NCBI GenBank assembly: GCA_014729945.1
Contig: WJJC01000173.1
Coordinates: 1 to 7,580 of the forward strand
Reading direction: 5' to 3'
DNA: 7,580 nt
From: Candidatus Bathyarchaeota archaeon
Lineage (GTDB): Archaea > Thermoproteota > Bathyarchaeia > TCS64
Positions within the stretch are counted from its first letter, which is position 1, and each line of letters opens with the position of its first letter. Made by a program: the position numbers and the translations under genes. Shown here one piece after another: positions 2,626-6,795 of the stretch. Under the pieces are notes generated by a model, which was given only the letters and a program-made list of their open reading frames with translations, was not told the origin of the DNA and did no database searches.

Positions 2626-3264
2626 TTATTCTAGCCAGATGGTATCCGAGCCACTACCAATATACTTGGTGTCATGGTAGAGATATACATAGATGTCATG
2701 GATTCCAGATTCCTCGGGCGTGAATTCGATTGATGGCCTGATTACTTCCCTAGCTTCTAGATTCTCTATCTTTGTCTCACCTATCTTCTCATAGCTGGAC
2801 GGTGAATCATGCCAGAAGGATACGGTGAAATCAGCACCACCGATAACTCCCTCAACCACAGCCTCCGCTTCAATTGTCTCATCAAGGATAGCGTGAGGAT
2901 GCGTCAACGCAAAAACGTTTCTCAGCTTCGCCCTCGTGACCCCTACATCTATCTCAACCCTAGGGGATGTCCAGAAAAAGTATTCACCATCTCTGAACCC
3001 TGAGACCGTAGCATATACCTTGGTTGATATATCAGCATTCAACTGGAATGGTAGAACTCTTTCTTCTCCCGCTTTAATTTCAGAGACATAGCTACCTGTA
3101 CCAAGCACATCAATGAAATACGGGTCCTCTGAATGCAGTTTAACGTCCAGCTGAGTCATGTCATCGGTGCTGACGTTTTTCAGGTGAACGGATACCCAGT
3201 GCTTTCCTGTCTTAATCGTTTCCGGAGTTACCTTAAATTCGAAAGGTCTTTTCATCGTCATCAT
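2626..3264 (-). CDS. Unrecognised two-domain Ig-like beta-sandwich protein
   Basis: A 212-residue protein that I cannot assign to a named family. Residues about 1-105 show alternating hydrophobic strands with WVSVHLKNVS, LHSEDPYF and VLPFQLN, a pattern like NEW3/COG1361 or CARDB adhesion-type beta domains. Residues about 110-212 form a second beta domain with FWHDSPSSYE and HDIYVYLYHD. There is no signal peptide, membrane helix or cysteine, so the protein looks cytosolic, unlike most surface proteins with such domains. It is followed by a T-run and then a frameshifted tandem paralog. Three in-frame ATGs (3264, 3261, 3255) could start it; a TATA-like element at 3295-3303 allows any of them. 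A binding or scaffold role is plausible, but there is no catalytic motif to support an enzyme. Confidence 0.8.
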   Translation of the reverse strand: MMTMKRPFEFKVTPETIKTGKHWVSVHLKNVSTDDMTQLDVKLHSEDPYFIDVLGTGSYVSEIKAGEERVLPFQLNADISTKVYATVSGFRDGEYFFWTSPRVEIDVGVTRAKLRNVFALTHPHAILDETIEAEAVVEGVIGGADFTVSFWHDSPSSYEKIGETKIENLEAREVIRPSIEFTPEESGIHDIYVYLYHDTKYIGSGSDTIWLE

Positions 3265-3570: not shown

Positions 3571-3681
3571 CTGTCGATAGAAGATCCACCAGACGATCCA
3601 GAAGATATACCCCCAAAAGAACCTCCTAAGGAACCCCCGGATAAGCCTCCAGAGCCTCCTGAGGAACCCCCAACCGAATAA
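3571..3681 (+). CDS. Proline-rich acidic mini-protein, probable CTG start
   Basis: A 36-codon frame ending in TAA at 3679-3681 that would be missed by ATG/GTG/TTG gene calling. Of 36 residues about 15 are Pro and 13 are Asp/Glu; the rest are mostly Lys. From residue 14 on it is a repeating PP-x-x array (IPPKEPPKEPPDKPP and onward). Such a chain would be disordered or polyproline-II, and its PP motifs would need aIF5A for efficient translation. The only start candidate with the Shine-Dalgarno sequence at 3559-3564 is CTG at 3571 (spacing 6); CTG starts are rare. Composition this biased is unlikely to arise by chance in a spacer. It follows the small CxxC protein and may be its coupled partner. 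Alternatives: a decayed tail of a longer gene, or a sequencing error near the start. Confidence 0.45.
   Translation: MSIEDPPDDPEDIPPKEPPKEPPDKPPEPPEEPPTE
3622..3671 (+). repeat. 17-bp imperfect direct repeat inside the proline-rich frame
   Basis: CCTCCTAAGGAACCCCC at 3622-3638 recurs at 3655-3671 with a single A-to-G change, offset by 33 bases (11 codons), so reading frame is kept. This suggests growth of the PP-x-x array by slippage or unequal exchange. Confidence 0.55.
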
Positions 3682-3686
3682 TCTCT

Positions 3687-4628
3687 TTATTTTTCCAAAT
3701 TATTTAAGACCCTCTCGTGTGGAAAACCTCTTTCCTCGCATAAGAACTGCATAACGCCATTCCTATTGATCTCCTTAAACTCAAGAGAGTAATCTTCTAT
3801 TAAAGGCGGGTCAAGAAACAATTTTCTAACATCTGCATAATTTTCATCCAGTTTTTTCTGGTATTTCTCAGGTATCTTCTCGATCGATCCATGTCTCTTG
3901 ATTAATTTTAGAGCTGTTTTGGGGCCTACTCTGAATACCCCCTCATTGTAATCCGTTCCAATGAGGATTCCCATATCAACAAGTTGCGCCCAGGAGATCT
4001 CATGATGATTCAAGAATTTATCCAGATCAATAATCTCTATGTTATCCTTGTTACTAATTGTCATATATCTGAGGAGCTTGCTCGCCCCAAATAGCATGGA
4101 ATCATAATCCCTGCTGTTCATAGCGTAGATCTCCTCATCGTGGGTCATATAAGCACACTGGGCCTCGGCCTCTGCTGGAGCCTGAACTATTGGTAGTCCC
4201 ATATTGTTTAAGAGCAGTTTAGCGTCCTTTATCATCTGATCATCCAGGAAACCAGTCTTAACCGCTTCTTTGAACGCTTTCTCGTCTTTTCCAACCTGTT
4301 TAGCTTTGCTCCACTTTTTCTTAGCTTCTCTTCTCCTCTCGGCTCTTTTCTCTACAACATCTGTTTTCAGGTCCGGCATCTCGCCATCAAAAACATAGAC
4401 TGGTTTAACTGAGAACTCTCTCATCATCTTCAGGGTGCGATAGAATAATCCTATAAGATGGGATGTTACGTTTCCCTGTGAATCTGTAAGCGGAGTTCCA
4501 TCTGGTTTCCGTATCGTAGAAAGGAACTGATGGAGTATATTCGATGCGTCAATAGTTATAACTTTGCCTTTTAATTCATCTAACTTTATTGTGTCCTTAA
4601 CCAGTATGGATTTAAGGTCTACGCCCAT
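3687..4628 (-). CDS. FEN1-like flap endonuclease lacking a PCNA-binding tail
   Basis: A 313-residue structure-specific 5' nuclease of the FEN1/XPG family. The N region has MGVDL, TIDASN (Asp27) and VYVFDG (Asp81). The internal region has APAEAEAQ (Glu153, Glu155) and SRDYDS (Asp174, Asp176). GTDYN (Asp226) completes the two-metal site, and the helix-turn-helix VGPKTAL follows. All seven acidic ligands are present. Oddities: the chain stops after the helix that normally precedes the extended C terminus, so the usual QxTLxxFF-type PCNA motif is absent. LHQF (His33) replaces the usual LYQF tyrosine that stacks on the flap base. The GIGP loop is RVGP with about one residue fewer before it. It starts in a 1-nt TAATG overlap with the polymerase gene, with GAGGAG 8 bases upstream. 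It probably processes flaps in the same pathway as its operon partners and may be a second, non-replicative FEN1. Confidence 0.9.
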   Translation of the reverse strand: MGVDLKSILVKDTIKLDELKGKVITIDASNILHQFLSTIRKPDGTPLTDSQGNVTSHLIGLFYRTLKMMREFSVKPVYVFDGEMPDLKTDVVEKRAERRREAKKKWSKAKQVGKDEKAFKEAVKTGFLDDQMIKDAKLLLNNMGLPIVQAPAEAEAQCAYMTHDEEIYAMNSRDYDSMLFGASKLLRYMTISNKDNIEIIDLDKFLNHHEISWAQLVDMGILIGTDYNEGVFRVGPKTALKLIKRHGSIEKIPEKYQKKLDENYADVRKLFLDPPLIEDYSLEFKEINRNGVMQFLCEERGFPHERVLNNLEK

Positions 4629-5530
4629 TACTCTAACTCCTCAATCTCACTCTGTATCCTCTTTAACGAACAGGGCTCGTTATAGAAATTTCTCCAAGGA
4701 TCATCTCTCTGACCTAGACGCCTGAAAATATTATTTATAGTATAGGTTTTTGAGTAAAGCTCTGAGTCATCGAGTTCATCCCACTCTAGAGGGGTTGCAA
4801 CTGGGCAATCTTTTCTCGCCCTAAGCGAATACGGTGATACAGAAGTTTGTCCATAAGCGTTTCTCGCGGTGTCCAGAAATAGTCTTCCTTTTCGCTTCTT
4901 TTTCCGTATCTCTGTGGTGTATTTTTCAGGGTACTTGGATGCAAGATGTGAGGTGATTTTATTTGCTGTATCTCGAACACTATCAAATTCAAGCTCTCTT
5001 TTTATGTGTAGCACAATATGCAATCCTTTTGAGCCAGTAGTCATGACAAAGGGGTCGAGTTTTAACTCCTCCATAATATCCCGTAGATCAAATGCGGCTT
5101 CCCTGACGGGTTCAAAGTCATCCCTTGGGGGATCCAGATCAAAGATAAGCTTATCCGGCAATTGAAGTGAATCTAATTTACTTAACCATATGTGGAAAGT
5201 GATGGTGCCTAGGTTAGCAAGATATACTATGGTTGCTCTACTATTTCCCATCATCTGGTACTGTTTTCCACCTTCAACTTTCTTTATTTTAACTGTTTCA
5301 ATGTAATCAGGGATATAATCAGGCGCCTCTTTCTGATAGAAGTCTACTCCACTTATTCCATCTGGGTACCTGTGAAGGGTCAAGGGTCTATTCCTGATAT
5401 GAGTCTCCATCGTGGGGAAAACCCGTCTATAGTAGTCAATTATATCTCCCTTGGTGACTCCAGAATCCTCAAAGAACACCTTTTCTAGGTTAGAGAGTTC
5501 TACACTGTGGCCGTTTATCTCGTCCATCAT
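4628..5530 (-). CDS. Stand-alone LigD-type primase-polymerase (PolDom)
   Basis: A 300-residue archaeo-eukaryotic primase-type polymerase equal to the polymerase domain of bacterial LigD. Signatures in order: LSNLEKVFF and TKGDIIDYYRRV (12-37), RPLTLHRYPDGISGVDFYQK (48-67), HIWLSK (113-118), LIFDLDPP with Asp131/Asp133, TTGSKGLHI (164-172), LFLDTARNAYGQT (217-229) with the third metal Asp220, SPYSLRAR and PLEWDEL. All catalytic aspartates are present. Relatives add ribo- or deoxyribonucleotides at gaps and broken ends. There is no ligase or phosphoesterase domain fused. The ATG pair at 5530/5527 follows the ligase stop in TAATG, with a GGGAG motif about 14 bases upstream; the stop overlaps the FEN1-like start the same way. 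It supplies gap filling between ligase and flap nuclease. Confidence 0.95.
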   Translation of the reverse strand: MMDEINGHSVELSNLEKVFFEDSGVTKGDIIDYYRRVFPTMETHIRNRPLTLHRYPDGISGVDFYQKEAPDYIPDYIETVKIKKVEGGKQYQMMGNSRATIVYLANLGTITFHIWLSKLDSLQLPDKLIFDLDPPRDDFEPVREAAFDLRDIMEELKLDPFVMTTGSKGLHIVLHIKRELEFDSVRDTANKITSHLASKYPEKYTTEIRKKKRKGRLFLDTARNAYGQTSVSPYSLRARKDCPVATPLEWDELDDSELYSKTYTINNIFRRLGQRDDPWRNFYNEPCSLKRIQSEIEELE

Positions 5531-6522
5531 TACGCTGGTATCTCCCTCTTGATTTCCCTTGGTGATTTATCTCTACGTAATCCAAGATATGAGGGGTGTC
5601 TAAGTTTACCATGATCTGTCCACTCGGTGAACTTAACCTCACAGACCAGTTTTGGCTCAACCCAGTGCACCCCTTTATCATCAATCATCCCCTCAAACGG
5701 GCTCTCTTCGGTCTCAATCTCTCTTAGTTTCTCTCCTAGTGTCTCTAAAGTCTCCTCTGTGTAACCGGTTCCAACTTTTCCAGCATAGACAAAATCATCA
5801 CCCTGGTAGTATCCGATTAAAAGGGCTCCGAAATACTCTCGCTCCCCTTGGGGTTCCGTGTACCCTCCTATAACGAATTCTTGTTGGTTTCGGCACTTGA
5901 ATTTAAGCCATTTTCTTGATCTGGAGTGAACATATTTACTAGTACCATCCTTAGCGATAATACCCTCCCAGCCTTTATCACAGGCTTCATCATGGTACTC
6001 TATCCCCTTCTCTCTACGATGCTTAACAAACCTGATTGGATCACTGAACTCCATCAAAGATTTTAACACTTCTTTCCTATGAACCAGCTCCACTTCTTCT
6101 GTGTTGTATCCGTTAAGGTGCATAATATCGAAAATATAAAAATAGACAGCTATGCCTGTTTTTTCAATATTTTCCTGTTCCCTCTTATGCATCCTCTTTT
6201 GAAGCTTGGAGAAACTGGTTAATTCACCCTCAAATGCCACTACTTCCCCATCAACGATGAAATCCCCCTGTTCTCCCTTCAAGGCGTTAACCACCTTAGG
6301 ATAAGTATTATTCAGGAGTTTTTTGTTTCTTGAATAAAGTTTTACTTCATCTTCTTTTTTAAAAGCCAAGCATCTTTCGCCATCTAACTTTCGTTCATAG
6401 ATCCAATCTATGTCATCGAAGTAATCATCTGTTAGGGTAGCTAGCATTGGGGTTATCCAGTCAGGCTGCTTCTCCTTTTTGAGATATTCCCCATATTCAT
6501 CTAATAGTGTCTTGGTGTTCAA
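5530..6522 (-). CDS. Minimal ATP-dependent DNA ligase (LigC/LigD-type)
   Basis: A 330-residue ATP-dependent ligase consisting only of nucleotidyltransferase and OB domains. Motif I is ERKLDGER with the AMP-accepting Lys45. Motif III is IVDGEVV (Glu93), IIIa YFYIFDIMHL (127-136), IV GWEGIIAK (184-191), V RKWLKFKC (203-210). The OB domain from about 213 ends with HPSYLGLRRDK (309-319). It lacks the N-terminal DNA-binding domain of the replicative archaeal ligase (about 550-600 residues), so it is a repair ligase of the LigC or LigD-ligase kind. The start is TTG at 6522: AGGAG lies 7 bases before it and an in-frame TAA stands at 6537-6535, leaving no upstream alternative. It lies 18 bases after the zinc-finger gene and overlaps the polymerase gene by one base. 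It would seal nicks left by the polymerase and flap nuclease. Confidence 0.95.
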   Translation of the reverse strand: MNTKTLLDEYGEYLKKEKQPDWITPMLATLTDDYFDDIDWIYERKLDGERCLAFKKEDEVKLYSRNKKLLNNTYPKVVNALKGEQGDFIVDGEVVAFEGELTSFSKLQKRMHKREQENIEKTGIAVYFYIFDIMHLNGYNTEEVELVHRKEVLKSLMEFSDPIRFVKHRREKGIEYHDEACDKGWEGIIAKDGTSKYVHSRSRKWLKFKCRNQQEFVIGGYTEPQGEREYFGALLIGYYQGDDFVYAGKVGTGYTEETLETLGEKLREIETEESPFEGMIDDKGVHWVEPKLVCEVKFTEWTDHGKLRHPSYLGLRRDKSPREIKREIPA

Positions 6523-6529
6523 TGAGTAG

Positions 6530-6534
6530 CTCCT
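6530..6534 (-). promoter_or_regulatory. Shine-Dalgarno deciding the TTG start of the ligase
   Basis: The minus strand reads AGGAG, 7 bases before TTG at 6522-6520. Because an in-frame stop lies just upstream and the next ATG is at residue 26, inside the conserved N terminus, this site fixes the TTG as start. Confidence 0.65.
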
Positions 6535-6540
6535 TTATCT

Positions 6541-6765
6541 TTACTTTTGTGTACCTTGGGGTTTCTCTGCTTCAGGTAGGTTGCCTTGTTTATTTTCTTC
6601 TTTTACTGGGCTTCTTCGCTGGGGTACTGTTACGGTAGGTTTCTTATGCGTGACATCAATGTGACGGTTAAGTACTTTTCTGGCTCCTTTCTCTGTCTCT
6701 TCTATGGTTTTCCAGTCACATAATTTGCACTCTGCGACCCATTTTCCATCAACTTGTTTTATCAT
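6541..6765 (-). CDS. Small C2H2-like zinc-finger protein leading the repair operon
   Basis: A 74-residue protein. Residues 8-40 form one zinc-finger-like unit: WVAECKLC with Cys13 and Cys16, an amphipathic helix, then RHIDVTH with His35 and His40 (C-x2-C-x18-H-x4-H). Residues 41-74 are a polar, probably disordered Pro/Lys/Glu-rich tail. It is the first gene of the operon, 18 bases before the ligase, with a TATA box 26 bases before its ATG. Single C2H2-type fingers in archaeal small proteins bind DNA, RNA or protein; here a recruiting or regulatory role for the ligase-polymerase-nuclease set is the simplest inference. An autoregulator of the operon is the alternative. I know no named family. 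The ligand pattern is clear, the function is not. Confidence 0.75.
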   Translation of the reverse strand: MIKQVDGKWVAECKLCDWKTIEETEKGARKVLNRHIDVTHKKPTVTVPQRRSPVKEENKQGNLPEAEKPQGTQK

Positions 6766-6786: not shown

Positions 6787-6795
6787 TTATATAAA
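6787..6795 (-). promoter_or_regulatory. TATA box of the repair operon
   Basis: The minus strand reads TTTATATAA, centred 26 bases before the ATG at 6765. This is a near-consensus archaeal TATA box at the leaderless distance and the only strong promoter seen for the four-gene minus-strand operon. Confidence 0.6.

Follow-up and report, generated by a model that had tools for sequence, protein, structure and literature searches.

A 7,580-nt stretch of DNA (the window; contig WJJC01000173.1 of a Candidatus Bathyarchaeota archaeon) carries on its minus strand four genes, encoding a zinc-finger protein, a LigD-type DNA ligase, a stand-alone LigD-type polymerase (Pol), and the flap endonuclease FEN1. 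This operon is a variant of the stand-alone ligase–polymerase (LIG-POL) repair set whose distinguishing feature is a linked, clamp-free FEN1, not a missing Ku. The features that carry this finding are the gene content and gene overlaps, the linkage of Pol and FEN1, the intact catalytic and wedge residues, and the missing PCNA-binding motif. An earlier note on this DNA had proposed a distinct module lacking Ku and phosphoesterase (PE); a Pol–FEN1 coupling conserved in relatives, a specialized FEN1, and a Pol of the stand-alone group support this reading in part, whereas the absence of Ku does not set the module apart and that of PE in the window is weak evidence.

Organization of the operon

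The first gene (6541..6765) encodes a small C2H2-like zinc-finger protein of 74 aa, recognized from its open reading frame (ORF), homologues, and a predicted model. It is followed by the ATP-dependent ligase (5530..6522, 330 aa), assigned from families and motifs, with a TTG start and a K45LDG motif, by the primase-polymerase Pol (4628..5530, 300 aa), assigned from families and invariant residues, and by the FEN1-type endonuclease (3687..4628, 313 aa), which was assigned from TIGR03674, residues, and a model, and has an intact active site and no C-terminal PCNA-binding motif. The ligase/Pol and Pol/FEN1 junctions are coupled by one-base TAATG overlaps, and a GGAG is located 7 nt 5' of the ligase start and another 8 nt 5' of the FEN1 start. 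In a pattern scan of the window, its minus strand gave just one TATA-box-like octamer, TTTATATA (6788..6795), 22 nt before the zinc-finger ATG, which is a putative promoter of the operon. The four genes, 1-nt overlaps, and single TATA box described in the earlier note are thus all present.

A separate clade of FEN1 proteins without the PCNA-binding motif

The window FEN1 exceeds the cut-off of TIGR03674 (395 bits, cut-off 352), matches PF00752 and PF00867, and has an archaeal FEN1 (1mc8) as its closest solved structure. The predicted model shows the core fold and the arch helices, with a mean predicted local distance difference test score (pLDDT) of 79.7 that is lower in the arch. The window protein shares with archaeal FEN1 its XPG fold, its active site, and its helical arch; it differs in that the chain stops at the last core helix, so that the PCNA-binding tail is missing, and in forming a clade of its own. 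The 20 closest FEN1s constitute one clade with a support of 100 and a stem of 0.55 in a quick tree supported by the SH-like approximate likelihood-ratio test (SH-aLRT) only. Seven acidic residues (D27, D81, E153, E155, D174, D176, and D226) and two arch residues (K/R) are invariant in all 20 members. Identity to the window protein drops from 63% within the clade to at most 50% beyond it. The clade adjoins a group that includes Bathyarchaeia-labeled FEN1s, and one of the related Pols described below (P0009) is labeled Bathyarchaeota; no clade member was found in whole-genome searches, nor when the fetched FEN1 stretches were compared with Bathyarchaeia-labeled FEN1s.

With a pattern of our own making, the PCNA-binding motif was found in none of the 20 clade members (0/20), compared with 82 of the 101 next-best FEN1s, and the C-terminal ends of 19 of the 20 differ in position by no more than one residue. 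Among the 19 next-best proteins off the pattern, 13 have a partial motif and six have none (P0144, P0155, P0165, P0185, P0188, and P0205). Inspection by eye of 34 FEN1 C-termini from the fetched genomes revealed the motif in all but two (L109 and L116). A specialized FEN1 is supported by the separate clade and the uniform lack of the motif.

Two side observations concern FEN1 diversity in general. P0144, P0155, P0165, and P0185 form a separate group of short archaeal FEN1s (321–323 aa) without the motif, two of which are labeled Bathyarchaeota or Thermoproteota. Genome G142 contains two FEN1s (C1:76359-77318 and C1:80672-81640), approximately 3.4 kb apart, which are placed on different sides of the FEN1 tree.

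Linkage of Pol and FEN1 in related contigs

A FEN1 profile (E up to 10) found no FEN1-like ORF in the other Pol loci (0/92, of which 91 are distinct, since L088 repeats L038); the flanks searched ranged from less than 1 kb up to 10 kb, and a distant bacterial 5'-exonuclease could have escaped the profile. Among the closest relatives, six contig sizes (28500, 5690, 3151, 2624, 2206, and 1944) are common to the 17 closest Pols and the 19 closest FEN1s. Equal sizes were observed for 6 of the 323 clade Pol–FEN1 pairs, as against 2 of the 13,957 pairs with a non-clade member. Across the seven linked pairs, one of which is that of the window, Pol distances and FEN1 distances are correlated (r 0.96), a value reached in 3 of 5,040 permutations. 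On the 1,944-base contig, approximately 100 bases are left beyond the two genes. Besides the window, at least six contigs thus appear to carry Pol and FEN1 in linkage, with congruent divergence and 62–71% identity to the proteins of the window. A coupling conserved in relatives is thereby supported for these two genes of the operon.

We also considered unequal sizes as a disproof of linkage and rejected this argument, since Pol and FEN1 of the window share a 7,580-base contig and no row of the comparison shows that size. The size column seems to give the contig of each cluster representative alone, so that unequal sizes say nothing either way.

These data bear on the possibility that this FEN1 is the general FEN1 of the lineage, which has lost its PCNA motif and stands beside Pol through operon drift. 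A single copy is indeed the usual state, as a FEN1 match was found in 380 of 394 archaeal genomes and two matches in only 14; furthermore, the clade member P0137 lies on a 587 kb contig, and no clade Pol row has that size, although this row is no test, given what the size column seems to describe. The linkage with congruent divergence, the lack of the motif in the whole clade when most archaeal FEN1s keep it, and the long clade stem argue against this explanation, which we regard as improbable.

Ligase and polymerase of the LigD type

The ligase scores above the cut-off of TIGR02779 (295 bits, cut-off 228), also matches PF01068 and PF04679, and has the M. tuberculosis LigD ligase (1vs0) as its closest solved structure. 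Its score with PRK08224, which we take to be the LigC model, is 127 bits, below the cut-off of 296. Judged by these scores, the protein would belong to the LigD type and not to the LigC type.

Pol exceeds the cut-off of TIGR02778 (260 bits, cut-off 215) and matches PF21686 (E 3e-87); its closest solved structure (5dmu) is the Methanocella polymerase of non-homologous end joining (NHEJ). The catalytic residues D131, D133, and D220, as well as the wedge residues K17, R54, P56, F64, and Y65, are identical in all 18 clade Pols. The wedge residues correspond by alignment to K16, R53, P55, F63, and F64 of PMC4797286, the numbering of the structure chain being three residues ahead of that in the paper. 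A phylogeny of 90 Pols places the clade of the window (18 rows and, in addition, the shorter P0018), supported at 100/100, inside the stand-alone group, from which the archaeal Ku-adjacent Pols are separated at 99/98. The ligase and Pol genes of the window are adjacent and separate and its Pol lies in the stand-alone branch, which defines a stand-alone LIG-POL set, in agreement with the stand-alone Pol of the earlier note.

The mycobacterial LigC/Prim-PolC system offers a different model for the operon, namely excision repair with ribonucleotide gap filling, in which FEN1 would clear residual RNA or 5' ends that are blocked, as opposed to Pol-made flaps. LigC and Prim-PolC are an ATP ligase and a primase-polymerase that are co-operonic, as in the window, act independently of Ku, and fill short gaps with ribonucleotides during base excision repair; Prim-PolC features a C-terminal structural loop (PMC5663958). 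FEN1 is not named as a member of that complex in the accessible text of the same paper, and the words flap and strand displacement are absent from it. With these differences, and with a ligase that passes the LigD-type cut-off and falls far below that of PRK08224, we consider this model very unlikely.

Distribution of Ku and phosphoesterase

No Pfam match to Ku or PE (PF13298) was found among 13 ORFs of the window that were searched. The statement of the earlier note that neither is present thus holds for the window, but not for the genome, which may encode both elsewhere. The surroundings of related Pols were characterized with home-made profiles in 91 loci, 80 from a species-genome collection and 11 from archaeal genomes. 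Near Pol, ligase was found in 38 loci, PE in 52, and Ku in 8, and PE-LIG-POL is the order in most of the bacterial loci that have a LIG-POL pair. Five archaeal loci (L016, L038, L057, L089, and L090) contain LIG-POL without PE or Ku in the fetched sequence; for L089 and L090, that sequence extends only about 1.5 kb from Pol on either side.

At the genome level, 21 of 56 genomes with a related Pol (completeness unstated) have Ku and 45 have PE. Seven archaeal genomes with Ku beside Pol were set aside, six of them seen in the loci and the seventh (G355) having a Ku fragment on the contig of Pol. Of the remaining 49 genomes, in which Pol and Ku are not neighbors, 14 have Ku and 35 gave no Ku match. 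In 8 of the 14, the distance from Ku to an open frame of 505–881 aa that carries PE, probably a separate large LigD, is at most approximately 6 kb. PE was found somewhere in all five archaeal LIG-POL genomes, and Ku in three (G001, G002, and G003), not in G041 and G063. Since the window Pol belongs to the stand-alone group and most comparable genomes (35/49) are also without a Ku match, an absent Ku is ordinary, and it was rejected both as a defining feature and as the mark of a distinct module for which the earlier note had taken it. The absence of PE fares no better as such a mark: it is weak evidence in the window because the five archaeal pairs, which lack PE in the fetched stretch, come from genomes that carry it elsewhere.

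The same genomes suggest that the operon could be part of an ordinary archaeal-prokaryotic NHEJ system split across the genome, with Ku and PE elsewhere and FEN1 as an accessory end trimmer. Three of them (G001, G002, and G003) have a LIG-POL pair with Ku and PE beyond the stretch fetched around the pair, and the window ligase and Pol have the scores of LigD domains of the NHEJ type. On the other side, Pol belongs to the stand-alone set, parted from the archaeal Ku-adjacent Pols, and the comparable genomes without Ku include the archaeal G041 and G063. A split NHEJ system is unlikely on this evidence.

Several other arrangements were observed among the loci. Two Salinisphaera loci (L010 and L023) combine a stand-alone PE-LIG-POL set, a fused LigD (856 and 812 aa), and two Ku genes in one locus, and constitute a natural comparison of the stand-alone and fused systems. 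A PE-Pol fusion in one ORF (507–530 aa) without ligase was found in L007, L033, and L070. In a 0.7 Mb archaeal genome (G245, locus L094), a Pol located beside Ku and ligase is broken by one TAG codon.

Comparison with known systems and proposed mechanism

The NHEJ set of Methanocella paludicola (Ku, Lig, Pol, and PE; PMC4797286) resembles the window in having separate genes for the ligase and the LigD-type Pol, and the wedge residues of its Pol, the closest with a solved structure, are the same; in contrast, the window operon is without Ku or PE and includes FEN1. Also related are the stand-alone PE-LIG-POL sets of bacteria (e.g., Zixibacteria L001 and Christiangramia L005) and the archaeal pairs, in which LIG is directly followed by POL, as in the window, with up to 58% identity for the ligase and up to 54% for Pol, and whose genomes are often without Ku. 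They differ from the window in lacking a FEN1-like ORF and, for most of the bacterial loci, in a PE gene that precedes the pair.

Archaeal and bacterial LigD-type Pols over-fill gaps and displace the downstream strand, for which R53 of the mycobacterial enzyme is required (PMC4797286). PE resects the excess 3' product and so permits ligation, a 3' resection that was contrasted with the 5'-flap removal proposed for Pol theta (PMC4797286). In the operon studied here, Pol would fill a gap and then over-fill it via strand displacement. Since a displaced 5' flap is a substrate of FEN1, Pol, FEN1, and ligase would constitute a closed fill-cut-seal cycle: FEN1 would remove the flap, taking along any damaged 5' end, and the ligase would seal the remaining nick. 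The part played at the 3' side by PE, in archaeal end joining as it is known, would here fall to FEN1 at the 5' side. The missing PCNA motif points to a recruitment of FEN1 by its operon partners instead of the replication clamp, and the zinc finger may help to dock the partners on DNA. We infer this biochemistry, with its substrate, recruitment, and zinc-finger role, from sequence. In our judgment the balance is about even that the operon is a translationally coupled, Ku-independent module for the sealing of short gaps, of nicks whose 5' ends are faulty, or of ends annealed through microhomology.

Several points weigh against this interpretation. PE may be encoded elsewhere in the genome, as in the five archaeal LIG-POL genomes. 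The loss of the PCNA motif alone is no marker of a LigD partner, as six FEN1s outside the clade are also without a trace of it. The Pol–FEN1 linkage was deduced from equal contig sizes, not from contig sequence, and 11 of the 17 Pols and 13 of the 19 FEN1s have no size partner, although this neither supports nor refutes linkage.

Zinc-finger protein and genomic context

The zinc-finger protein matched no Pfam or NCBIfam family. Its motif is C13-x2-C16...H35-x4-H40, and the AlphaFold model has a strand-strand-helix arrangement with pLDDT of 84–94 over residues 1–40 and approximately 40–51 thereafter, so the predicted C-terminal tail is probably disordered. A structure search with this model gave no significant match, and homologues comprise only three proteins at 81–100% identity, including the window's own (the others at 81 and 91%). 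Its own database row gives a contig of 7,580 bases, so that the window probably spans the contig in full.

Positions 1–1925 of the same contig contain genes for two phosphoribosyltransferases and an alpha/beta hydrolase. A 50% identical hydrolase (L030 7320-7931) is located approximately 2 kb from Pol in a Zixibacteria genome, perhaps reflecting a loose neighborhood. Two overlapping minus-strand ORFs in different frames (1938-2574 and 2626-3264; 111 and 107 aa) jointly resemble the neighboring 212-aa CARDB-like protein in size and sequence, as if a frameshift, or else an error in sequencing, had broken up a second copy. A short Pro/Glu-rich frame without ATG (~3572-3681, plus strand; PPKEPPKEPP-type repeats) runs head-on into the end of FEN1.

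A salt-adapted (acidic) host was considered, since several bacterial Pol relatives come from salty places, and is not supported by the charges of the window proteins (net charge per residue between -0.07 and +0.07, ferredoxin excepted). A virus or plasmid origin of the operon is likewise unsupported: no relative was confirmed in viral contigs scanned with Pol, ligase, and FEN1, the plasmid collection gave no match, and the phage collection contained two unannotated records with a distant Pol (32–34% identity). Genome contigs scanned with the ligase alone yielded no confirmed relative.

Significance

Very few archaeal species have Ku, and Ku-independent NHEJ is unreported in archaea according to the accessible text of a 2025 publication (PMC12019639), in which the words FEN1 and flap are absent. 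A LigD-type ligase domain without Ku was reported for 230 of 243 archaeal genomes (PMC7719229), a domain search that may be catching other ATP ligases too. No operon of FEN1 or flap endonuclease with LigD was found in titles and abstracts of the open-access literature, a body from which subscription papers are mostly absent.

An operon of three enzymes that could in principle fill, de-flap, and seal would be a compact candidate for reconstitution. It would bear on why LigD-type Pols displace strands, a question left open in the accessible text of PMC4797286. The togetherness of Pol and FEN1 in related archaea suggests a repair kit that cuts displaced strands and does not trim newly made ones. 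More tentatively, and with doubt prevailing, a dedicated clamp-free FEN1 could have replaced PE in a LigD-type ligase-polymerase machine, giving prokaryotic 5'-flap gap repair and microhomology joining; such a 5'-flap route would resemble the joining proposed for Pol theta, built from unrelated parts.

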